64,000 nucleotides of DNA from Fodinibius salsisoli (lineage in GTDB: Bacteria > Bacteroidota > Rhodothermia > Balneolales > Balneolaceae): assembly GCF_026229185.1 (NCBI RefSeq), contig NZ_JAGGJA010000011.1, positions 62,001-126,000 on the forward strand, read 5' to 3'. Below, in pieces: positions 8,165-55,723 of the stretch. The first letter of the stretch is position 1; every line of letters starts with the position of its first letter. Made by a program: the position numbers and the translations under genes. The notes under the pieces were generated by a model. It was not told where the DNA came from. It worked only from the letters and a program-made list of their open reading frames with translations, and searched no databases.

Positions 8165-9079
8165 CTACTTGCGATAAAACCCATAATAATTAGCCACTGC
8201 TTCATAGTCAGAAACGTCCAGATGGTTGGGTAGGATGGATGTTTCCCCGGCTTTTATTTTCTCAAGGTTTTCGGTGCCGGAGGGTTCAATTTGAACAATA
8301 ATAATATCAGAAAAGCTTTCTCCGGGACCACTTACTACTCTGATCCGGACATCAATAGCTGTACCACTATTAAATGATCCATGATACTGGTTATACTCAG
8401 TGTCGGTGCCTGGGCCATAACCTGGAACAGGAAACTTAAATCCACTTGTACCAAGATAAACGAGCCATATACTTTCCTCTGTTTTTTCAATATTGCGTAG
8501 GAATTTTTGGGTACTGCCTTCAGATGAAAAATCATGCCCTGGAAAGATGTATCGTGTAACATTGGCATTGCCATCAGCACCTTTGAGGTTGAGCGGACTC
8601 CCCCAACCACTTCCGGTTTTCGGGCCATATAACTCATAGCTGCTTTTGTCAAGATAGTAGTCCCCGACCTTACCAAGAGATGCATCCGGAGCCCCACTGC
8701 CGGAATGAATCTGGCTACCATCTTCACCGTCGGCTCCGTCCTGTCCATCTTCCCCCATCAATACGATAATCGGATTTCCCCACCCGTCGGCATCTTTGGG
8801 TCCATAAAGTTCACCAGTATTTTGATTCAAATAGTAATCACCATTTGCACCCATACCGGCCTCAAGATCTCCTTCGCCGGAATACATTGCGCTGCCATCT
8901 TCGCCGGCCGGGCCTACCGGACCTTGTGCTCCTTCGGGACCTTGAGGCCCCTGGTCGCCGATTGGACCTTCACACCCTATCAGAGATACACTGATGATCA
9001 GCATAAAAGTTAGCAGCAGATGGGAAAAGTGAGTTGTATTTATTCTGGAAATATGTGGTTGTTTTATTGATGGTTTCAT
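8165..9079 (-). CDS. Collagen-like repeat lipoprotein (copy 1)
   Basis: A 304-residue predicted lipoprotein. A hydrophobic signal ends at SVSLIGC, giving a lipidated Cys36. This is followed directly by Gly-X-Y triplets (GPIGDQGPQGPEGAQGPVG). Next come two copies of a module with the pattern GDYYLN...ELYGPK...GWG.P, separated by a second short Gly-X-Y run (GEDGQDGADGEDGS). The last 120 residues form a unique, probably beta-rich domain with no recognised family. The protein is probably outer-membrane anchored with a short triple-helical stalk. A paralogue with the same modules is encoded about 500 bases upstream on the same strand. Function is unknown; adhesion or surface display is possible. 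Confidence 0.75.
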   Translation of the reverse strand: MKPSIKQPHISRINTTHFSHLLLTFMLIISVSLIGCEGPIGDQGPQGPEGAQGPVGPAGEDGSAMYSGEGDLEAGMGANGDYYLNQNTGELYGPKDADGWGNPIIVLMGEDGQDGADGEDGSQIHSGSGAPDASLGKVGDYYLDKSSYELYGPKTGSGWGSPLNLKGADGNANVTRYIFPGHDFSSEGSTQKFLRNIEKTEESIWLVYLGTSGFKFPVPGYGPGTDTEYNQYHGSFNSGTAIDVRIRVVSGPGESFSDIIIVQIEPSGTENLEKIKAGETSILPNHLDVSDYEAVANYYGFYRK

Positions 9080-9588: not shown

Positions 9589-10533
9589 TTAATCTCGAAT
9601 CCCAAAGTATTTTTTAGTTTGCTGGTAGTTTTTCAAATTTATTGGCAGGCTGTTTGTATTAGTACTGACACTTATATTTTCAAAGCCTGGGATAAGTACA
9701 TAGCGAAAAGAATTGCGTTCAGCATTATAGTCCTCAGGATCCAAATCTTCGGTGAATGATCGTATTTGAATATAAACCTTGTCAAAATAAACATGTGAGC
9801 GATATACATGTGATACCTCTCCATTAGAAATATCACGAACAGTTAGAGGTAATTGGTAAACTACACCAATATCTCTATATGGCGTACTTCTGCGATAAGC
9901 TAATACGACCCCAGTCTCCTTAAATTCGTTTGTTAACCTACTTTCAGTTATTATCATTCTCTTGAGTCGTGGGCGGTCAACACTCCAATCCGGTTCAAAC
10001 CATGTGGTATACATAACGTTCGTCTTAGCCTGCATATTGAGAGGAACTCCCCATCCACTGTCCGTTTTAGGACCATACAACTCAAAGCTGGATTTATTCA
10101 AATAAAAGTCATCTGTGTTTCCGAGTGATTCTGCAGGCGCCCCGCTTCCTGAGTATATCTGACTTCCATCTTTACCGTCTGCTCCATCTTGTCCATCTGC
10201 ACCGTCCTCTCCATCCTGGCCATCTTCTCCCGGCGGGCCCTGCAGGCTGAAAGGCACGCCCCAACCATCCTGTGTTTTGGGACCATACATTTCTGCGGCT
10301 GTGGTATTAAGGTAGAAGTCTCCCAATTTACCGATATCTTCACCTGGAGTACCGCTACCGGCATGAATAATGCTGCCATCTTCGCCGGCCGGGCCTATAG
10401 GCCCCTCCTCACCTTCGGGACCTTGAGGCCCCTGGTCGCCGGTCGGACCTTTGCAACCGATCAAAATTATACCGAAAGCCAATAGTAGTGTCAGAAGCAA
10501 CAGGTGTGCCTTTTTTATAGGTGTATTCATCAT
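9589..10533 (-). CDS. Collagen-like repeat lipoprotein (copy 2)
   Basis: A 314-residue paralogue of the protein encoded at 8165-9079. The signal peptide ends at ILIGC, followed by Gly-X-Y triplets (GPTGDQGPQGPEGEEGPIG). Two GDFYLN...GPK...GWGVP modules follow, separated by a longer Gly-X-Y run (GPPGEDGQDGEDGADGQDG). The C-terminal domain of about 140 residues differs from that of copy 1, although both end in a similar Tyr-Phe-Gly segment. The shared stalk with different heads suggests duplication followed by head diversification. It is probably a surface-exposed lipoprotein of unknown ligand. The upstream gap to the TIG/TolB-like lipoprotein is only 117 bases, so co-transcription is possible. 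Confidence 0.75.
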   Translation of the reverse strand: MMNTPIKKAHLLLLTLLLAFGIILIGCKGPTGDQGPQGPEGEEGPIGPAGEDGSIIHAGSGTPGEDIGKLGDFYLNTTAAEMYGPKTQDGWGVPFSLQGPPGEDGQDGEDGADGQDGADGKDGSQIYSGSGAPAESLGNTDDFYLNKSSFELYGPKTDSGWGVPLNMQAKTNVMYTTWFEPDWSVDRPRLKRMIITESRLTNEFKETGVVLAYRRSTPYRDIGVVYQLPLTVRDISNGEVSHVYRSHVYFDKVYIQIRSFTEDLDPEDYNAERNSFRYVLIPGFENISVSTNTNSLPINLKNYQQTKKYFGIRD

Positions 10534-40799: not shown

Positions 40800-41174
40800 T
40801 TATGAACATCCCCGGTCGCTGATATAAATGGCAACCATAGTACCAACTTTTGATGTTTCGTCCCCATCTTCCGGATATTTATATTCCCTGATAATGATCG
40901 CATTACCACCCACAGCAGCAGTCTCTTTCTTGGCTGCATTTATACTGCTTGTATTATCCATTTCGAAGGCTGTTTCAGTGTTAATTAAAGCAATACGCTC
41001 AAAATCACAGGGCACATCTTCCGGCTCCAGATAGAGTTCCACCTGCTGAGGAGATGTGGGCCTATATTTATACTTCGTATTTAACTTGGTTACACTTGTA
41101 CTAACACAAGAAGACAAAATTAAGGACGAAAGAATGGTGGTAATAATATATCGCGTATCGACGTGATTTTTCAT
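40800..41174 (-). CDS. Small lipoprotein of unknown function
   Basis: 124 residues with a lipoprotein signal (TTILSSLILSSCVST, Cys about residue 23). The mature part contains a PTSPQQVELYLEPEDVPCDFERIALI segment and AAKKETAAVGGNAIIIREY, a pattern I associate with small Bacteroidota lipoproteins that have a heavy-metal-binding-like YbjQ-type fold. That is only a suspicion. There are two further Cys (in PCDF and the C-terminal GCS). No partner gene is close. Confidence 0.65.
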   Translation of the reverse strand: MKNHVDTRYIITTILSSLILSSCVSTSVTKLNTKYKYRPTSPQQVELYLEPEDVPCDFERIALINTETAFEMDNTSSINAAKKETAAVGGNAIIIREYKYPEDGDETSKVGTMVAIYISDRGCS

Positions 41175-41314: not shown

Positions 41315-42349
41315 TTGTTAACAGCACTACTTATGCCTTCTTTTAGTATTATCATTGTTTCCTGGAATGCATTGCATCATCTCAAAAAATATTTACCCAG
41401 TGTCATTGCCACAGACTATCCAAACTTTGAAATCATTTTAGCTGATAATGCCTCAACAGATGGGTCTAAAGCGTGGGTCCGTGAGCATTATCCCAAAGTT
41501 AAAATTGCCGCCCTTGAAAAAAACTATGGCTACTGTGGGGGGAACAATAAAGCCGTTCCCTATGCCGACGGTGATATTCTCCTTTTTCTTAATAATGATG
41601 TCCGGGTTGAGCCTGATTGGCTGCATGGACTAGCCCGCTGCTTTGAAGATCCTGGTATAGGAGCAGCCCAGCCAAAGTTTCGATCCGATGAAGAACCCGA
41701 ATATTTTGAGTATGCCGGAGCGGCCGGTGGTTTTCTGGATAAATATGGCTATCCTTTTTGCAGGGGACGTATTTTTGATACGGTTGAGAAAGATTATGGA
41801 CAGTATGATAATGCCCGGGATGTCCTTTGGGCCAGTGGCGCTGCTCTTGCTATCCGCAAAGAGCTTTTTATAGAACAAAAAGGCTTTGATGAAGCATTTG
41901 AATTCCATATGGAGGAAATTGACCTCTGCTGGCGTTTGTGGAATGCTGGCTACCGGGTTCGTTATTGTCCCGATAGCATTATCTACCATCTGGGCGGCGG
42001 TTCACTGCCAATGGATTCTCCCCGAAAGGTTTATTACAATTATCGCAATAACCTGAAGATGATTTGGAAAAACTGTAGTGCCGGGAGTTTGGTCCGGCGA
42101 TTTTGGATTCGTTATGGCTTAGATATCATCGCAACCCTTCGGTCACTTAGCACCGGAAACTGGAAAGAAGCCCAAGCTATTATCCGGGCTCACTACCACT
42201 TTTGGCAATCTTTTCCGTCTGTTCACCGCCAGCGGCAAGAGCTTCAACAGCGTCGAACTGTAGCAGATGACCCTGTCACTATCATGCCGGTAAATATCAT
42301 TAAAGAATACTTTTTGAAGAGTAACAAGATGTTCCGGGAATTACCATAA
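41315..42349 (+). CDS. Family 2 glycosyltransferase (rhamnosyltransferase-like)
   Basis: 344 residues, GT-A fold. Visible motifs are SIIIVSWNALHHLKKYLPSV, ILADNASTDGSKAW, FLNNDVRVEPDWL (the DxD equivalent is Asn-Asn-Asp), and the acceptor-site HMEEIDLCWRLWNAGYRVRY. The C-terminal half continues with an RNNLKMIWKN helix common in WbbL-type rhamnosyltransferases. No membrane span is evident. It is followed after 11 bases by a membrane protein with a HEAGH motif, likely in one transcript. It probably adds a sugar in cell-surface polysaccharide synthesis. Donor and acceptor are unknown. Confidence 0.92.
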   Translation: MLTALLMPSFSIIIVSWNALHHLKKYLPSVIATDYPNFEIILADNASTDGSKAWVREHYPKVKIAALEKNYGYCGGNNKAVPYADGDILLFLNNDVRVEPDWLHGLARCFEDPGIGAAQPKFRSDEEPEYFEYAGAAGGFLDKYGYPFCRGRIFDTVEKDYGQYDNARDVLWASGAALAIRKELFIEQKGFDEAFEFHMEEIDLCWRLWNAGYRVRYCPDSIIYHLGGGSLPMDSPRKVYYNYRNNLKMIWKNCSAGSLVRRFWIRYGLDIIATLRSLSTGNWKEAQAIIRAHYHFWQSFPSVHRQRQELQQRRTVADDPVTIMPVNIIKEYFLKSNKMFRELP

Positions 42350-49283: not shown

Positions 49284-49353
49284 CATTGAGAACGCTCAAT
49301 GGGGTTAAATTCCCGCTTATGTCAAAATGTTCAGGAGTGCAACTCCTTGACAG
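49284..49353. repeat. Hairpins between YdeI-type and YCII-type genes
   Basis: CATTGAG (49284-49290) pairs with CTCAATG (49295-49301), and AGGAGT pairs with ACTCCT around GCA (about 49333-49347). There is no T-run, so these are processing or attenuation elements at most. Confidence 0.45.
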
Positions 49354-49360
49354 CTGGTTA

Positions 49361-49421
49361 TTTCCACAGTCTCAATCATTATAAGGATATAAGGCAAACA
49401 CTCACATCAAATAAAAAGAAT
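49361..49421 (+). promoter_or_regulatory. Conserved leader upstream of YCII-type gene (copy 2)
   Basis: TTTCCACAGTCTCAATCATTATA through an ACATCAAATAAA segment matches the leader of the DoxX-like gene (47859-47921) base for base over most of its length and ends at the start codon. It is a shared promoter or a duplicated regulatory region. Confidence 0.55.
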
Positions 49422-49781
49422 ATGAAAGAATTCATGTTATTATTTCGGCAACCAAGTTATGATTATAGCGATGTTTCAAAAGAAGAAATGGCAGAACTTT
49501 CGAAGAAATGGAATGACTGGTGGAAAGGCATCGAGAAACAGGGAAAATTAGCCCGTCGAGGACCCCTCCTTTCTATGGAGGGCAAAGTGCTAAAACCCGG
49601 AGGGGTAGTCACCGATGGTCCGTTTGTTGAGATCAAAGAAAAGCTGGGTAGCTTTATTGTTGTGAAGGCCGAAGATTTGGAAGAGGCTACCACATTAGCG
49701 CACGGCTGTCCGGCACTGGATCAGGGCGGGAGTGTTGAAATCCGTCCCTTTGGAAACCCATGGACAGGGACGAAAGCATAG
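49422..49781 (+). CDS. YCII-related DGPF-motif protein
   Basis: 119 residues. Contains the YCII/DGPF hallmark VTDGPFVEIKEKLGSFIVV near residues 58-76 and the C-terminal EATTLAHGCPALDQGGSVEIRPF segment. DGPF proteins are the standard genetic partners of ECF42 sigma factors (known from comparative studies of ECF groups). Their chemistry is uncertain. The frame is open from 49299, but the ATG at 49422 lies exactly where the sequence becomes protein-like (MKEFMLLFRQ) and just after the conserved leader. The ECF42 gene follows after 28 bases. Confidence 0.9.
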   Translation: MKEFMLLFRQPSYDYSDVSKEEMAELSKKWNDWWKGIEKQGKLARRGPLLSMEGKVLKPGGVVTDGPFVEIKEKLGSFIVVKAEDLEEATTLAHGCPALDQGGSVEIRPFGNPWTGTKA

Positions 49782-49809
49782 TAGGATAACATAACGGCTG
49801 TACCTTTCC

Positions 49810-51048
49810 ATGCAACACGAACAACAAACTATAAAACGGCTATTCCACCAGGAATTTTCAAAAATGGTGGCGGTTATCAGTAAGCGATATGGGTTGTCTA
49901 ATATTCAGCTTGCTGAAGATGTGGTAAGTGAAACTTTTCTTCAGGCAGCAGAATCGTGGGGACTTGAAGGGCAGCCGGAAAACCCTACGGCCTGGCTCTA
50001 TGTAGTGGCCAAGCGAAAAGCGTTGCACCATTTCCGCCGGGAAAAAATATTTGATAATAAAGTATCTCCGGAACTGAGGTTACGACGGCAAGAAGATGAT
50101 GGAGTCGCAGAACCGGATTTATCGTTGCAAAATATCAAAGACAGCCAGTTGCAAATGCTCTTTGCCATCTGTCATCCCGCCATTGCCAGCGAAGCCCAGA
50201 TAGGATTGGCCCTGCGTACCCTTTGTGGTTTTGGTATCGATGAAATTTCGGAGGCTTTTTTATCCAATAAAAGTACCGTTAACAAAAGATTGTACCGGGC
50301 AAGAAAAAAACTTCGGACTGAAAATATCAGGATGGAACTGCCACCTGAGGATGAAATTCCCGCCCGCCTCGACAATGTCCTGCGTATTATTTACCTGCTG
50401 TTTAATGAAGGGTATTACTCGAACACACAAAATAAAATTTTGCAGAAGGACCTTTGCCTCGAGGCCATGCGGCTGGGACTTTTGCTGACCGAATATGCAA
50501 AAACCAATGAACCAAAAACAAATGCGCTGGTGGCCCTCATGTGCTTTCATGCTTCCCGATTTGAGGCTCGTGAATCCGCTGAGAGTTCTATCATACTATA
50601 TGACCAGCAAAACTCAGAATTATGGGATGCAGCGTTAATTAAGCAGGGTATGCGGTTTTTGGATCGGTCGGCCCAAGGTAACGAAATAAGCACATATCAC
50701 TTGGAGGCACGTATCGCATACTGGCATTGCATCGAAGAAGACACCCCAGAAAAGTGGGAGGAGATTCTTCAGCTCTATAATCAACTCTTGGATATCAACT
50801 ATTCTTCGAGTGCTGCACTTAACAGAGTTTATGCGCTTTACAAAGTGGAGGGAGCAAAAATTGCCATTAAAGAGGCTGAGGAATTGAGCCTGCAGGACAA
50901 TCATTTCTATTTTGTTCTCTTGGGTGAGTTCTACCAAACCACCAATCCGGATAAAGCAAAAAATCATTTCCAAAAGGCTTGGTCCTTAGCTAAGTCTCCG
51001 TCGGAAAAGCAACTCATTCAAGAAAAAATTAACAAAATTAGTTTGTAA
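49810..51048 (+). CDS. ECF42-type RNA polymerase sigma factor with C-terminal TPR-like extension
   Basis: 412 residues. Sigma region 2 (LAEDVVSETFLQAAESW, WLYVVAKRKALHHFRREK) and region 4 (LRTLCGFGIDEISEAFLSNKSTVNKRLYRARKKLR) occupy the first 170. A helical extension of about 240 residues follows (DNVLRIIYLLFNEGYYSN, the DUF6596 segment, and AALNRVYALYKVEGAKIAIKE, TPR-like). This layout is the ECF42 group, which has no anti-sigma factor and is thought to be controlled through its own C-terminal extension. Its nearest neighbour is the DGPF protein, as usual in that group. Confidence 0.92.
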   Translation: MQHEQQTIKRLFHQEFSKMVAVISKRYGLSNIQLAEDVVSETFLQAAESWGLEGQPENPTAWLYVVAKRKALHHFRREKIFDNKVSPELRLRRQEDDGVAEPDLSLQNIKDSQLQMLFAICHPAIASEAQIGLALRTLCGFGIDEISEAFLSNKSTVNKRLYRARKKLRTENIRMELPPEDEIPARLDNVLRIIYLLFNEGYYSNTQNKILQKDLCLEAMRLGLLLTEYAKTNEPKTNALVALMCFHASRFEARESAESSIILYDQQNSELWDAALIKQGMRFLDRSAQGNEISTYHLEARIAYWHCIEEDTPEKWEEILQLYNQLLDINYSSSAALNRVYALYKVEGAKIAIKEAEELSLQDNHFYFVLLGEFYQTTNPDKAKNHFQKAWSLAKSPSEKQLIQEKINKISL

Positions 51049-51420
51049 CCCCTGTAATGAATAGCTCTATTACGATTATTTCAGAGATCATGGACTGAAG
51101 TGTCAGACCTTTTACCCCTACCCCTGACCCAGAGTGTTAGACTGTTTGACCTGAGGCGTCAGAAACTCTGAGTAAAGCACAAACACATCGGATGAGTAAC
51201 AAGAGCTCTTATTCGATACTGAACTAAATCACTCATCCGATGAGTGATTCCAGCCTATTTACCATTTGAGATTCCTCCTCACATTCTCCTCGGAGTGACA
51301 GAGCAGGTTCCCTCTATTAATTTTTCCGCCAAGAAGTGTAAAGCCAATGATAGCTTAATATGATGCTCCTTTTAGTATTCAAGCCTTTCTAATCATAAAA
51401 ATTTGCATTTTCAAATTTTA
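51049..51420. other. Intergenic region with palindromes, no gene
   Basis: No coding frame. It contains degenerate TGTCAGACCT-like repeats near 51100-51175, an odd palindrome at 51227-51249 with a matching half at 51185-51197, and the sequence TTCCTCCTCACATTCTCC of the type common in scattered intergenic elements. Confidence 0.5.
51227..51249. repeat. 23-base perfect palindrome with an extra half-site
   Basis: AATCACTCATC and GATGAGTGATT are complementary with a single central base. A related half, CATCGGATGAGT, lies about 40 bases upstream (51185-51196). It could be an operator for an unidentified dimeric regulator or part of a mobile palindrome. Confidence 0.6.
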
Positions 51421-51438
51421 TTTCTACATTTGTAGAAA
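51421..51438. promoter_or_regulatory. BlaI/MecI-type operator 1
   Basis: TTTCTACATTTGTAGAAA is a perfect dyad containing the TACA...TGTA core recognised by BlaI/MecI repressors. It lies 24 bases upstream of the blaI-type start, with a second dyad 20 bases (two helical turns) downstream. Confidence 0.8.
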
Positions 51439-51441
51439 CAG

Positions 51442-51457
51442 TTCTAATAATGTAGAA
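51442..51457. promoter_or_regulatory. BlaI/MecI-type operator 2
   Basis: TTCTAATAATGTAGAA is an imperfect copy of the upstream dyad, ending five bases before the start codon. Binding of BlaI to both sites would block transcription of its own operon. Confidence 0.7.
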
Positions 51458-51461
51458 TAAC

Positions 51462-51833
51462 ATGAAGCTATCAAAATCCGAAGAGCAGTTAATGCAGTAT
51501 ATCTGGGAGCTTGGAAAGGCCTTTCTGAGTGACCTGCTCGAAAAATATCCTAAGCCCAAACCAGCCAGCAGTACCGTAGCAACGCTGCTGAAACGTATGA
51601 AAGATAAAGGATATATAGACTATGAGCAGATGGGGCGTTCACGCAGATATTATCCCCTGGTGGAGAAATCAGACTACTTTTCTCAACATCTAAACAACCT
51701 GATCAAGAAATACTTCAATGATTCTCCGTCCACCTTTGCTTCTTTCTTTACAAAAGAGACCAATCTTTCTGATGAAGAATTGGAAGAACTCCAGGAAATT
51801 ATCAACCAAGAGCTTAAAAAGAGAGACCAATGA
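51462..51833 (+). CDS. BlaI/MecI/CopY-family transcriptional repressor
   Basis: 123 residues. The winged-helix domain is typical: LSKSEEQLMQYIWELGKAFLSD, SSTVATLLKRMKDKGYIDYEQMG and RRYYPLVEKSDY. The C-terminal dimerisation segment (about 75-123) carries the usual cleavage-prone region of BlaI (FASFFTKETNLSDEELEELQ). It is proteolysed or otherwise inactivated in response to the membrane sensor encoded next. Two dyads upstream are its likely binding sites. The stop overlaps the M56 gene by four bases (ATGA), so both proteins are made from one mRNA. Confidence 0.95.
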   Translation: MKLSKSEEQLMQYIWELGKAFLSDLLEKYPKPKPASSTVATLLKRMKDKGYIDYEQMGRSRRYYPLVEKSDYFSQHLNNLIKKYFNDSPSTFASFFTKETNLSDEELEELQEIINQELKKRDQ

Positions 51834-53401
51834 TTACCTATCTCCTCTATTCGACTGTTTGTATGGGACTGATACTCCTGTTCTACCATGCCGTTCTGGC
51901 AAAGGAAAAGATGTATCAGATCAACCGCTGGTACCTGCTCTTTGGCCTGGCTTTTTCTTTAATAGTCCCATTTTTGCCCATAGGCATGGCTGACTCTTAT
52001 TTAAATCTCGACCGTGGCCCAGAACTCCCAATTGTTTCTGAGTATACAATAGGAACTGACATGCAAACCAAAACAGAAAAGCCTGTATCTACTACAGCTG
52101 AGAGTGGAGAACAGCCACCCCTTGGCATTGCATGGATTTCACCATTGCTTGTCCTTCTTTACGGTGTAGTTTCCCTTTTCCTGTTTGTCCGAATGGCCTG
52201 GCACTTTTGTCGCATGCAGCTGCGATCCATGAAAAATCCGGCCGTATTTTTTCAAGGCCATAAAGTTGTTTTGCTGGATGAAGAGATTGCCCCTCATACT
52301 TTCTGGTCGACGATATTTGTCAATAAGCAGCAGTATGAAAATGGTCAGATCAGCAATGAGATACTTATTCACGAACTAACCCATGCCCGGCAGTATCATA
52401 CACTGGATATTCTTATTCTCGAATTTTTGAAAACCATCTTTTGGTTCAACCCGGTTCTCTACCTTTACAAAACGACTATCCAGCTCAACCACGAGTTTAT
52501 AGCAGACGAGAATGTCCTATCAAAAGGTACAGACATTACGCAATACCAGGCCTTACTGCTTAGCATGCGGAAAGCGCAAACCGTTAACACTTTAAGCACC
52601 AGTTTACATTTTAAAATCACAAAAAAGAGGTTCCAGATGATGACTCAACACAATTCACCCTATCGTACTTTTTTGAAGACAGCAACCATCCTTCCATTGT
52701 TCCTGGTTCTTGGTATGCTTTTTGGCTGTGAGCCGGCCAGCATGGAGGAAGATCACTCAGATCAGGCACAGGTAATCACCCTGGAATTAATAGACGACGA
52801 AACCATTAAGCTTAATGGAGAAAAGGTTTCTCCTACTGATTTTAAATCCCGGTTTGCCAAAGCCGTACCTGAGCCGAAAAATTCCATTCTCAATTTTAAG
52901 GTTCACCCGGACACCCCATTTGGTTTGGTAACTGATATCCAGAAAATAATGCGCGAGCACGGAGCTCTGAGAATTAATTACTCGACGACACAACTAAGTG
53001 AATCTCAGTCAGAGGAAACTTGGAGGACAAAGTTAGATAACAGAAATATCTTGGACATACTTATTAATAATCAGGGAAATATTTTAATTAATGAAGAACC
53101 CGCATCACTTTCTTCAATTAAAAAATTAGCCAGGGATTTTATAACCAACAACGGTGAAAAAGAGCATTTATCGGAGAATCCCAGAGAAGCTATTATTGCC
53201 ATTGAAACTGATAAAAGAACACCTCATGACACCTATACCAATGCCTTAGATAAAATAATGGCAGTATATGATGAGTTAAGGAACCAGGCATCACTTCAGA
53301 AATTTGGTAAGCCATTCCAGTTGCTGGAAGAAGGAAGCAAAGAGCGAAAGCAGGTTGAAACCAGGTATCCCAAGAGAATCAGTATAAAAGATCCATCTTA
53401 G
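51830..53401 (+). CDS. BlaR1-like M56 membrane peptidase fused to ExbD-like domains
   Basis: 523 residues. The first about 300 form the M56 (BlaR1/MecR1) membrane metallopeptidase: four membrane spans and the zinc motif HELTHARQYHTLD (His181, Glu182, His185), with WFNPVLYLY and HEFIADENVL following. The final span is about 282-298. There is no penicillin-binding sensor. Instead, the extracytoplasmic part resembles ExbD-type domains twice: about 315-387 (LELIDDETIKLNGEKVSP) and about 404-520 (ILDILINNQGNILINEEPA, then AIIAIETDKRTPHDTYTNAL, as in long Bacteroidota ExbD tails). It probably senses an envelope signal and cleaves BlaI. The fusion is unusual. Confidence 0.88.
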   Translation: MITYLLYSTVCMGLILLFYHAVLAKEKMYQINRWYLLFGLAFSLIVPFLPIGMADSYLNLDRGPELPIVSEYTIGTDMQTKTEKPVSTTAESGEQPPLGIAWISPLLVLLYGVVSLFLFVRMAWHFCRMQLRSMKNPAVFFQGHKVVLLDEEIAPHTFWSTIFVNKQQYENGQISNEILIHELTHARQYHTLDILILEFLKTIFWFNPVLYLYKTTIQLNHEFIADENVLSKGTDITQYQALLLSMRKAQTVNTLSTSLHFKITKKRFQMMTQHNSPYRTFLKTATILPLFLVLGMLFGCEPASMEEDHSDQAQVITLELIDDETIKLNGEKVSPTDFKSRFAKAVPEPKNSILNFKVHPDTPFGLVTDIQKIMREHGALRINYSTTQLSESQSEETWRTKLDNRNILDILINNQGNILINEEPASLSSIKKLARDFITNNGEKEHLSENPREAIIAIETDKRTPHDTYTNALDKIMAVYDELRNQASLQKFGKPFQLLEEGSKERKQVETRYPKRISIKDPS

Positions 53402-53451
53402 CAATAATCTCTTAGTAGAACCTGAATTTTTTATGGTCGTTGTATCAAATT

Positions 53452-54033
53452 TCAGGGAGCTATCGGTATACCTTCTCCCAACGCTATCTTTCCGGGTATT
53501 TTAATCTCTTTACTTTCCTTTTTAGTTATCTCAAGGCCTTCGCAATGTATGGCTCCCGATATTTTCAATGTGCCGGTTCTGAGTTGCCTGATCCTGGCGT
53601 CCTGAATTTTTAGAATGCCTCCTTTTACCAAAATTTCCAAGTCAACGTCAACATTAATTCTGCCAATCGATTTGTTATTCACTTCTACATCAAGATATGG
53701 TTTGTGCTTCGAAGAAACCGTATGCTCTTTGAGTTCGATTAGAAAAACTTCCTCGGGATCGTACTTTTCTCTGTTTACATATTTATTGAGTATGCCCGCC
53801 TTATTCCAGGCCCGGATCAAAATATCCGGAATCGTTACGCTGAGCAGATCTCCGGCCTTGGTCTTGATGTCTTCGGATAAACCGGACCAGGATATCATAG
53901 ACGATTTTTCAGTCAAGCTTTGCCTCATTGAGCGAAGCCCTTCGCCATCCAGCGACCGTTTTAAATTTTCAGTAAATCCTCCGTCTTCTTTATCATTGAA
54001 GACTTGGTACAAACTATTAGGTTGATTCATCAT
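53452..54033 (-). CDS. Unknown protein partnered with PKD-repeat membrane protein
   Basis: 193 residues with no signal peptide or membrane span and no recognised domain. The N-terminal 60 residues are helical and polar. The C-terminal half is rich in short alternating hydrophobic strands (SIGRINVDVDLEILVKGGI, GTLKISGAIHCEGLEI) and ends in IPGKIALGEGIPIAP. The start overlaps the end of the PKD-repeat gene by 17 bases, so the two are translationally linked. Its cytoplasmic location and the cytoplasmic tail of the upstream protein suggest they interact. Function is unknown. Confidence 0.7.
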   Translation of the reverse strand: MMNQPNSLYQVFNDKEDGGFTENLKRSLDGEGLRSMRQSLTEKSSMISWSGLSEDIKTKAGDLLSVTIPDILIRAWNKAGILNKYVNREKYDPEEVFLIELKEHTVSSKHKPYLDVEVNNKSIGRINVDVDLEILVKGGILKIQDARIRQLRTGTLKISGAIHCEGLEITKKESKEIKIPGKIALGEGIPIAP

Positions 54034-55723
54034 AATCCCTCTGCTCTTGTATGATCAAATTTCCCGTATTTTTAATTGATTGCGCCCCAATATCTTTTAC
54101 TGGTTTCAGCCTCAATTCAGATTTAATCTCAAGTCCACCATGGGAAGAGACCTCCTGTTGTCCCAAGTCAATATGTGGCTTGACCGTTGTAGATATACTG
54201 CCAGGTGACCTGGGCTTATTTTCCTTTTTGGGAATACGACCTCTTACCAGAAAATAGCTCCCCGCTCCCAGGATTACGAGTGCACCTGCGATAAGAATCC
54301 AATAGGGAAATCCCTCAATATTTATAGGCACAATAGTGCTTTGGAATGTCTCGCCCGGCGACAACCGAGCTTCCACAAATACATCATAGGAACCCTTCTG
54401 ATCGTAAGTATAAGTCGCTTCGGATTTAGGCGTCCACCCCGACTCCTCGCCATCGCCAAAATGAAAATTGTACTCTGCATCAACGCCTGCGGGTATCCCT
54501 GCTGCAGTAAAGTGGATAGCAGTGCCCGTCTTGGCTTCGGATGGGTCAGGCTCAAGACTGAGATTAAAACCGGGGTGAACCGTTATTGAATAGGGATTAC
54601 TGGAAAAACTCCTCCCTTCAATCGAAGTCAAAAGATTAATCTCATGCTCTCCTTCCTGCCGAAAGACATAATCAAATGTAGGTTGAGGACGGCTAAATAC
54701 TGAATCACCAACTACAAAATTATAGGTTGCGTTATCGACAGCAGGATTAATGGAACCGGTGAATTCAACGCTCTCTCCTTGCCGGATAACATTTTTATCT
54801 GCATTCAGCCTGACTTCAATGACACTTACTGTTAATGCATTGCTCCTGGCAACAATTTCTCCATTCGGATTTCGTGCAGTCGCATATACCCGGTAACGTC
54901 CGGGGTCCGGATAACTGTGCTCGGTTTGTTGTGCAGCATCAACATAAGTAGCTGTATTATTCCCAAAATTGACTTCATAGGTTAATTCCTGCCCTGAGGG
55001 TTCAAGGAGTTGGGCCGTAAATAAGATTGGATTTCCGGCTCCTACCATGGACTCACTGGCATCCAGGCTTAAATTAGGGGTTCCAAGATCGGGTTCTCCA
55101 ACATTGATGGTTATAGTATCTCTTCCCAAGAATTTATTACCTACGTAGGCATTAAGCTGAACCGTATAAGTTCCAGCCTGGGGATAACTGTATTCAACAG
55201 CAGGACCATTAAAATTTCCGGCATTATCATCCCCATAATAGATAACCAGATTAACGGTTTCATTGGACGCTCTACCAGTAAACTGAATCGTTTCATTCAC
55301 CTCAGCGTCTGTTTTATCGGCTCTCAGGGAAACTTCAACTTCCGGAAGATTGATTACTTCAACCGTTACCGGGTTGCTTCTAATTGGGTTAAAATTGGGA
55401 GTCGGTTTTACTTCCACAAAAGCCTCATACTGACCCGCATTGTTATATACATAGCTAAGTCGAGGACTGTCTCCCCATCCGGTTTCCTCTCCATTCCCCA
55501 GATGAAAATTATAAGTGGCGCCATCGTATTCAGGCCTGAGATAAGCTATAAGATTAGTACTATCTCCAGTTATTGTAGGAGTGCTGATTACGTACAGCTC
55601 TACAGTGGGTGTTTCTGGCTCTTGAGCAACTGCGTTGTATGAATTAAGCGGCCCCATGCCTATGAAAAGCAGGCATACCCCAACTTTTAGCAATCTGAAA
55701 CTATGTTGTAACATCCGGCTCAT
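54017..55723 (-). CDS. PKD-domain repeat single-span membrane protein
   Basis: 568 residues. Signal peptide ending NAVAQEPE. About five PKD/Ig-like repeats follow across residues 40-450, recognisable by YNFHLGNGEETGWGDSPRLSY, YNFVVGDSVFSRPQPTFDY and YNFHFGDGEESGWTPKSEA patterns. A single membrane span (YWILIAGALVILGAGSYFLV, about residues 455-474) and a basic cytoplasmic tail of about 90 residues complete it. The PKD array probably binds glycans or proteins outside the membrane. The tail may contact the unknown protein encoded immediately downstream. No cellular role is established. Confidence 0.82.
   Translation of the reverse strand: MSRMLQHSFRLLKVGVCLLFIGMGPLNSYNAVAQEPETPTVELYVISTPTITGDSTNLIAYLRPEYDGATYNFHLGNGEETGWGDSPRLSYVYNNAGQYEAFVEVKPTPNFNPIRSNPVTVEVINLPEVEVSLRADKTDAEVNETIQFTGRASNETVNLVIYYGDDNAGNFNGPAVEYSYPQAGTYTVQLNAYVGNKFLGRDTITINVGEPDLGTPNLSLDASESMVGAGNPILFTAQLLEPSGQELTYEVNFGNNTATYVDAAQQTEHSYPDPGRYRVYATARNPNGEIVARSNALTVSVIEVRLNADKNVIRQGESVEFTGSINPAVDNATYNFVVGDSVFSRPQPTFDYVFRQEGEHEINLLTSIEGRSFSSNPYSITVHPGFNLSLEPDPSEAKTGTAIHFTAAGIPAGVDAEYNFHFGDGEESGWTPKSEATYTYDQKGSYDVFVEARLSPGETFQSTIVPINIEGFPYWILIAGALVILGAGSYFLVRGRIPKKENKPRSPGSISTTVKPHIDLGQQEVSSHGGLEIKSELRLKPVKDIGAQSIKNTGNLIIQEQRDYDEST

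Follow-up and report, generated by a model that had tools for sequence, protein, structure and literature searches.

Bacteroidota feed largely via Ton-dependent receptors. How they monitor the condition of the Ton machine is a question raised by a two-gene locus of a marine bacterium of the family Balneolaceae (Fodinibius salsisoli, genome of 4.85 Mb in 43 contigs), in which a BlaI-type repressor is encoded together with a membrane protease of the BlaR1 type whose periplasmic half is made of ExbD domains. What would such a protease respond to, when the penicillin-binding sensor of BlaR1 is missing? The locus was analysed within a stretch of 64,000 nucleotides, called the window, whose positions are used below. 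Its features are the following.

51402..51432 (+): Bacteroidota-type promoter TTTG-N19-TANNTTTG, recognised by its sequence pattern and overlapping operator dyad 1
51422..51437 (no strand): operator dyad 1, TTCTACATTTGTAGAA, perfect; the sole site with 0 mismatches in the genome
51442..51457 (no strand): operator dyad 2, TTCTAATAATGTAGAA, with 2 mismatches, exactly 20 bp after dyad 1
51462..51833 (+): blaI-like repressor, 123 aa (PF03965, E 1.8e-29)
51830..53401 (+): M56 (BlaR1-type) protease with presumed ExbD sensor, 523 aa (PF05569 and PF02472 over the cut-off)
51830..52579 (+): TM1-TM3 and cytoplasmic zinc protease, aa 1-250, matching BlaR1 in sequence and fold (8exq, E 3.3e-6)
52370..52384 (+): zinc motif HELTH, aa 181-185, read from the sequence
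52583..52642 (+): juxtamembrane segment VNTLSTSLHFKITKKRFQMM, aa 252-271, a candidate autocleavage loop (His260-Phe261)
52658..52729 (+): TM4, about aa 277-299, ending in LFGC with the lipobox-like Cys300; helix 277-298 in the AlphaFold2 model
52766..52993 (+): ExbD domain 1, ExbD-b type, aa 313-388 (PF02472; placed with real ExbD-b in the tree)
53039..53398 (+): ExbD domain 2, ExbD-a type with the C-terminal tail, aa 404-523 (PF02472; placed with real ExbD-a in the tree)

The two reading frames overlap by 4 nt, and the architecture of a BlaI, an M56 protease and two ExbD domains is near certain. A preliminary description, made from the letters of the DNA alone, had proposed a BlaI-controlled M56 peptidase, and this agrees with the Pfam matches: PF03965 matches the repressor, and Peptidase_M56 (PF05569) lies at aa 21-270 of the second protein with E 1.9e-18, passing the cut-off. 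The candidate cleavage site of the repressor, presumed from an alignment with S. aureus BlaI, is Phe95/Phe96. The fusion gene is located neither beside exb or ton genes nor beside exbB/tolQ; its neighbours at 49299-55723 encode YCII, ECF sigma and PKD proteins and one protein without a Pfam match. Elsewhere in the window, at 8165-9079 and 9589-10533 (-), two neighbouring lipoprotein-like proteins carry collagen-like GPxGPxGxxG repeats.

The peptidase half, earlier described as standard BlaR1-type, has this character by its PF05569 match, its HELTH motif and its fold match to BlaR1. The HExxH motif and a downstream Glu are invariant in 60 Bacteroidota M56 proteins, a set selected by juxtamembrane motif rather than at random. 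The claimed absence of a penicillin-binding domain holds as well, as no transpeptidase/PBP (penicillin-binding, class D-like) sensor domain is found among the Pfam matches of the 523-aa protein, and the NCBIfam BlaR1 models match the protease part only, far below the cut-off. In BlaR1, the protease cleaves BlaI as well as its own chain ahead of TM4, where Phe occupies P1′, and signal peptidase releases the sensor behind TM4 (PMC9834060). The juxtamembrane segment of the fusion occupies the position of this autocleavage loop (PMC9834060). The loop of the fusion before TM4 (LSTSLHF-KITKKR) contains the aromatic residue, and its KKR..M is near-invariant both in the junction alignment and in the 60 M56 proteins.

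TM4 (TATILPLFLVLGMLFGC) is without any acidic residue, and the motor Asp-bearing N-terminal TM helix of ExbD is absent. The lipobox pattern also matches cysteines inside TM4 outside Balneolaceae, hence only the aligned Cys of the junction alignment was counted; it stands at the end of TM4 in 12 of 13 fusions. In the M56 proteins of Flavobacteriia (L184-L241), the end of TM4 is often formed by an AxA-Q site resembling those of signal peptidase I (VEAQE, VIAQK), at the place where Balneolaceae have the lipobox-like Cys. Because TM4 ends in LFGC, the Cys recurs in the fusions and the AxA-Q-like sites occur in Flavobacteriia, processing of the sensor by signal peptidase, of the lipoprotein type in Balneolaceae, is plausible as a parallel to BlaR1.

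The periplasmic half (aa 313-523) consists of two ExbD domains according to Pfam, AlphaFold2/Foldseek and the tree. Two segments resembling ExbD had already been noticed in the preliminary description, and profile comparison finds the relation present: PF02472 matches the fusion with E 3.3e-11 and 43.8 bits (cut-off 25.4) in two stretches. A scan of the whole genome with ExbD gave the two fusion copies separately at E 4e-4 and 1.6e-5, and the sole other matches were the three real ExbD/TolR genes. The AlphaFold2 model of the whole protein, built from a 41-sequence alignment, has a mean pLDDT of 85.6 and contains three TM helices, the protease, TM4 and two ExbD folds, with a pTM of 0.60 that leaves the mutual placement of the two ExbD domains open. 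When the tail was modelled alone (pLDDT 89.6), both domains showed the ExbD topology with high confidence. The top Foldseek match is S. aureus BlaR1 (8exq), and the next is ExbD bound to TonB (8p9r; TM 0.78, 2.0 Å over 73 columns); ExbD with the D-box (8vgc, 8vgd) and TolR are also matched. Structure prediction and comparison with solved ExbD/TolR thus give the ExbD fold for both domains.

The origin of these domains is indicated by the Ton operon of the same genome, which has the order exbB - exbD-a (181 aa) - exbD-b (150 aa). In a tree of 74 ExbD domains from fusions and real genes, a branch with 98/100 support separates fusion domain 1, together with real ExbD-b and TolR, from fusion domain 2, together with real ExbD-a. 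Since the tree separates them, the two segments descend from different ExbD paralogues, and an origin as two copies of one ExbD is ruled out. Domain 2 and the linker before it (aa 388-523) align with the cell's own ExbD-a at 43% identity over 136 aa, gap-free and tail included, in accordance with the long Bacteroidota-type C-terminal tail claimed earlier. An LPPAPP-like stretch stands ahead of domain 2 in many relatives, and likewise after the TM helix of real ExbD-a. Domain 1 shares 19 of 36 residues (53%) with the cell's own ExbD-b and is far closer to ExbD-b than to TolR. To judge by these sequences, domains 1 and 2 are ExbD-b and ExbD-a domains acquired from the Ton motor of the same cell.

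The second half of domain 1 is conserved (Gly365, Asp369, Gln371 and Tyr384 in 14/14 copies), and the first half has drifted. Tyr384 falls on E. coli ExbD Leu132 in the profile alignment, two residues beyond the last aligned Ile, a correspondence that speaks for residue retention only. In E. coli, mutation of Leu132 stops D-box binding, and one D-box strand of TonB is taken up in the groove of the ExbD dimer (PMC10907165). The binding of ExbD to peptidoglycan is transient, and the dimer interface is affected (PMC10771500).

The distribution of the fusion was surveyed with a junction profile comprising the juxtamembrane segment, TM4 and domain 1. The fusion, whose presence in other genomes the preliminary description had left to such a survey, is matched nearly in full in 29 of 92 Balneolaceae genomes, which belong to 7 of 21 genera; among 394 genomes of the phylum, one such match lies outside this family. 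A search for viral carriers gave 49 pattern matches with no relative among them. Outside Balneolaceae, the domain-1 profile matches 7 of 60 M56 tails at E < 1e-3, compared with 0 of 600 shuffled tails, and domain 1 alone is present in a few Flavobacteriia M56 proteins; the domain-2 profile has no match among the same 60 tails. In comparisons with a measurable dS, dN/dS ranges over 0.05-0.28 in the protease, TM4 and domain 1, and over 0.16-0.40 in domain 2; both ExbD domains are under purifying selection where dS is unsaturated. Domain 2 is missing in one relative (G009), interrupted by stops in two (G006, G011) and doubled without a recognised domain 1 in another (G013); it is lost or broken in 3 of 5 Fodinibius copies (L043, L045, L046), with domain 1 kept. 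Domain 2 therefore seems dispensable, given its absence in G009 and the stops in G006 and G011, and a covalent ExbD-b/ExbD-a pair would not always be required.

Related sequences were observed in other arrangements. Short ORFs of about 100-130 aa with a domain-1 match occur at L153:1468-1797, G106:C2:349249, G052:C132:1076, G110:C269:10004, G069:C236:2149 and G064:C11:216903; that of L153 (109 aa), the one examined over its full length, starts with a leader resembling that of lipoproteins, lacks any M56 portion and lies above the ExbD cut-off. A 320-aa M56 homologue beside blaI (L154:1126-2088, identical with L069:6781-7743) has lost the protease core and kept the TM helices and two domain-1-like repeats. 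Sister BlaI-M56 operons of Balneolaceae (L062:2084-7031 (-), L065, L067, L057, L048, L047, L059, L058) are followed by 1 to 7 tandem proteins of 200-280 aa. These start at the M56 juxtamembrane motif (e.g., MKQFTSHIDFSLTKKRFKMM) and continue with TM4 and a periplasmic tail without a protease, resembling free-standing sensor chains like the autocleavage product of M56.

The regulation of the operon can be followed at its promoter. Sites of this promoter type number 3 in the window against 0.4 expected, and the same arrangement (N19-N21) stands upstream of blaI in 17 of 28 relatives. The two perfect-to-near-perfect dyads reported before are confirmed, dyad 1 being perfect and dyad 2 having 2 mismatches. 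Dyad 1 recurs with at most one mismatch upstream of 26 of the 28 blaI genes compared, a set that spans fusion and MORN-type operons and counts the gene of the window itself, and the 20-bp spacing to dyad 2 recurs too; dyad 2 alone is not above chance within the window, and the pair is conserved at fixed spacing in the relatives. Dyad 1 contains the -7 element of the promoter, which fits simple self-repression.

No second strong operator is found elsewhere in the genome, and none is common to four other Fodinibius genomes except at M56 operons. The visible output is thus self-regulation, and no visible link leads to the Ton genes. Wider regulons were considered and rejected: sites of TTCTACANNTGTAGAA with 2 mismatches are about as frequent as those of the reversed-pattern control, the 1-mismatch operator site in the genome falls within a LacI-type gene, and TCTACANNTGTAG retrieves from five Fodinibius genomes just M56 operons and sites inside or overlapping other open frames. 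The sequence evidence contains no tie of the operon to iron or beta-lactams, its own promoter being the sole target found. A lone TACACTTGTA at 41091-41100 of the window lies upstream of a glycosyltransferase ORF at 41315; such sites are at chance level in the window.

The only other M56 protein of the genome (G000:C22, L041:6299-8251) adjoins a blaI and combines M56 with TonB_C and CarbopepD_reg domains. Its TonB C-terminal domain shows 73% identity with the cell's own TonB, and its blaI is without the doubled-dyad operator. Both M56 proteins of the genome therefore wear Ton parts, an ExbD tandem in one and TonB_C in the other. M56 tails differ widely between paralogues (MORN_2, TonB_C, ExbD); in those of the 60 Bacteroidota M56 proteins, Pfam finds TonB_C in 14, the TBDT plug in 3, carboxypeptidase-regulatory-like domains in 4, ExbD in 4 and M23 in 2.

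The loss of the penicillin sensor, together with the carriage of both ExbD domains, makes it probable that the cue on which the protease inactivates its own repressor comes from the Ton machine or the cell wall and not from antibiotics. The reading preferred here, whose chance comes close to even, is that of a two-gene self-regulating system of the BlaI-BlaR1 type, in which the captured ExbD tandem replaces the beta-lactam sensor, binds the ligand of the motor ExbD (TonB or peptidoglycan) and triggers BlaI cleavage. The M56 protein would cross the inner membrane and expose its protease to the cytoplasm and its ExbD pair to the periplasm, where the pair would form an ExbD-like dimer groove. The ligand of this groove would most likely be the periplasmic D-box segment of TonB, which would become accessible if ExbBD is scarce or disengaged, or else peptidoglycan. 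Ligand binding by the ExbD tandems of an M56 dimer may alter the TM helices via TM4 and activate the protease. Cleavage of BlaI would then free the doubled operator overlapping the promoter, leading to transcription of blaI-m56, and the turnover of the sensor could be provided by autocleavage before TM4 and lipoprotein-type processing at Cys300. It was also considered whether the TM2-TM3 loop could serve as an internal ligand, in the manner of EL1 in BlaR1; the loop is disordered in the AlphaFold2 model, which gives this idea no support.

The proposal that the protein reads the motor or shares its ligand appears better grounded now than in the preliminary description, as both paralogues are present, the presumed TonB-edge residues of domain 1 are kept and the second M56 protein carries a near-copy of the TonB C-terminal domain. 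A broader version, possible although doubtful, would make BlaR1-type proteases general monitors of the Ton system in Bacteroidota: each copied Ton part (ExbD pair, TonB C-terminal domain, receptor plug) would compete for the partner of the real component, imbalance would lead to BlaI cleavage, and the Fodinibius protein would be a covalent mimic of an ExbD-b/ExbD-a heterodimer. If the sensor reading is true, a direct and testable route leads from the Ton motor to gene expression, and the textbook antibiotic-sensing switch would be a single case of a broader scheme of envelope sensing in which the sensor can be exchanged. Should the two ExbD paralogues associate in the motor itself, the fusion would also represent a covalent model of that pair.

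Other explanations have to be weighed against the sensing of a motor ligand. The domains, being of the ExbD/TolR type, could bind wall glycan, so that wall damage or a changed distance to the wall would activate the protease and the ancestral theme of BlaR1, itself a sensor of wall-directed drugs, would be kept. The transient peptidoglycan binding of ExbD with its effect on the dimer interface and the M23 domains in two of the 60 sampled tails agree with this peptidoglycan sensor; it is nevertheless unlikely, as the TBDT plug, the carboxypeptidase-regulatory-like domains and the near-identical TonB_C tails point to Ton and not to the wall, domain 2 derives from ExbD-a, and domain 1 is far nearer to ExbD-b than to TolR. 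It is quite unlikely that the ExbD domains form a mere dimerisation or spacer module, with the signal read elsewhere (the TM2-TM3 loop, the membrane) or by a partner lipoprotein. The frequent loss of domain 2 in Fodinibius and the wide variation of M56 tails between paralogues would be expected of such a module; against it, domain 1 is kept in the fusions with its invariant residues on the presumed ligand-binding side, and Ton-tied domain types recur far outside Balneolaceae.

The tandem might also act on the Ton motor directly, as a decoy that titrates TonB or partners with ExbB/ExbD and thereby tunes Ton activity, with BlaI just limiting its own level. Such a role is improbable in view of the conserved protease residues and the missing motor helix with its Asp (TM4 having no acidic residue), even though no target besides the own promoter was found and the C-terminal tail of ExbD-a is kept in domain 2. 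The premature stops in two relatives could suggest a chance or decaying fusion without function; this is hardly credible for a gene present in 29 of 92 genomes and 7 genera, with a conserved operator and dN/dS below 0.41 wherever measurable.

No literature joining M56, ExbD and BlaI was found in a search of sources other than subscription papers and preprints, and the only paper that joins peptidase M56 with TonB there surveys extrachromosomal elements of C. difficile and is, to judge by its title, unrelated. The closest described systems are BlaR1/MecR1-BlaI/MecI of staphylococci and bacilli, with which the fusion operon shares the overlapping repressor gene, the M56 zinc protease and the arrangement of its TM helices, the basic juxtamembrane loop before TM4 and the TACAnnTGTA operator before the operon. 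Unlike them, it has an ExbD tandem and no penicillin-binding sensor, no adjoining resistance gene and no second strong operator in the genome. The ExbD-a/ExbD-b pair of the Bacteroidota Ton motor (exbB-exbD-exbD) is homologous to the periplasmic domains paralogue by paralogue, with the same fold and the same C-terminal tail, whereas the fusion is without the ExbD TM helix and its Asp, without an ExbB partner gene, and joined to a protease. A comparable two-exbD arrangement is found in Riemerella (exbB2-exbD21-exbD22-tonB2; PMC4446302). The M56-TonB_C proteins of Bacteroidota, such as the second M56 protein of this genome, also combine M56 with a captured periplasmic Ton component and adjoin a blaI; in contrast, the place of ExbD in the second protein is taken by a TonB C-terminal and a carboxypeptidase-regulatory-like domain, and its blaI is without this operator. 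The system described here would work like BlaR1-BlaI, yet without the defining sensor of BlaR1, and its periplasmic domains are ExbD by descent, without the helix of the motor.
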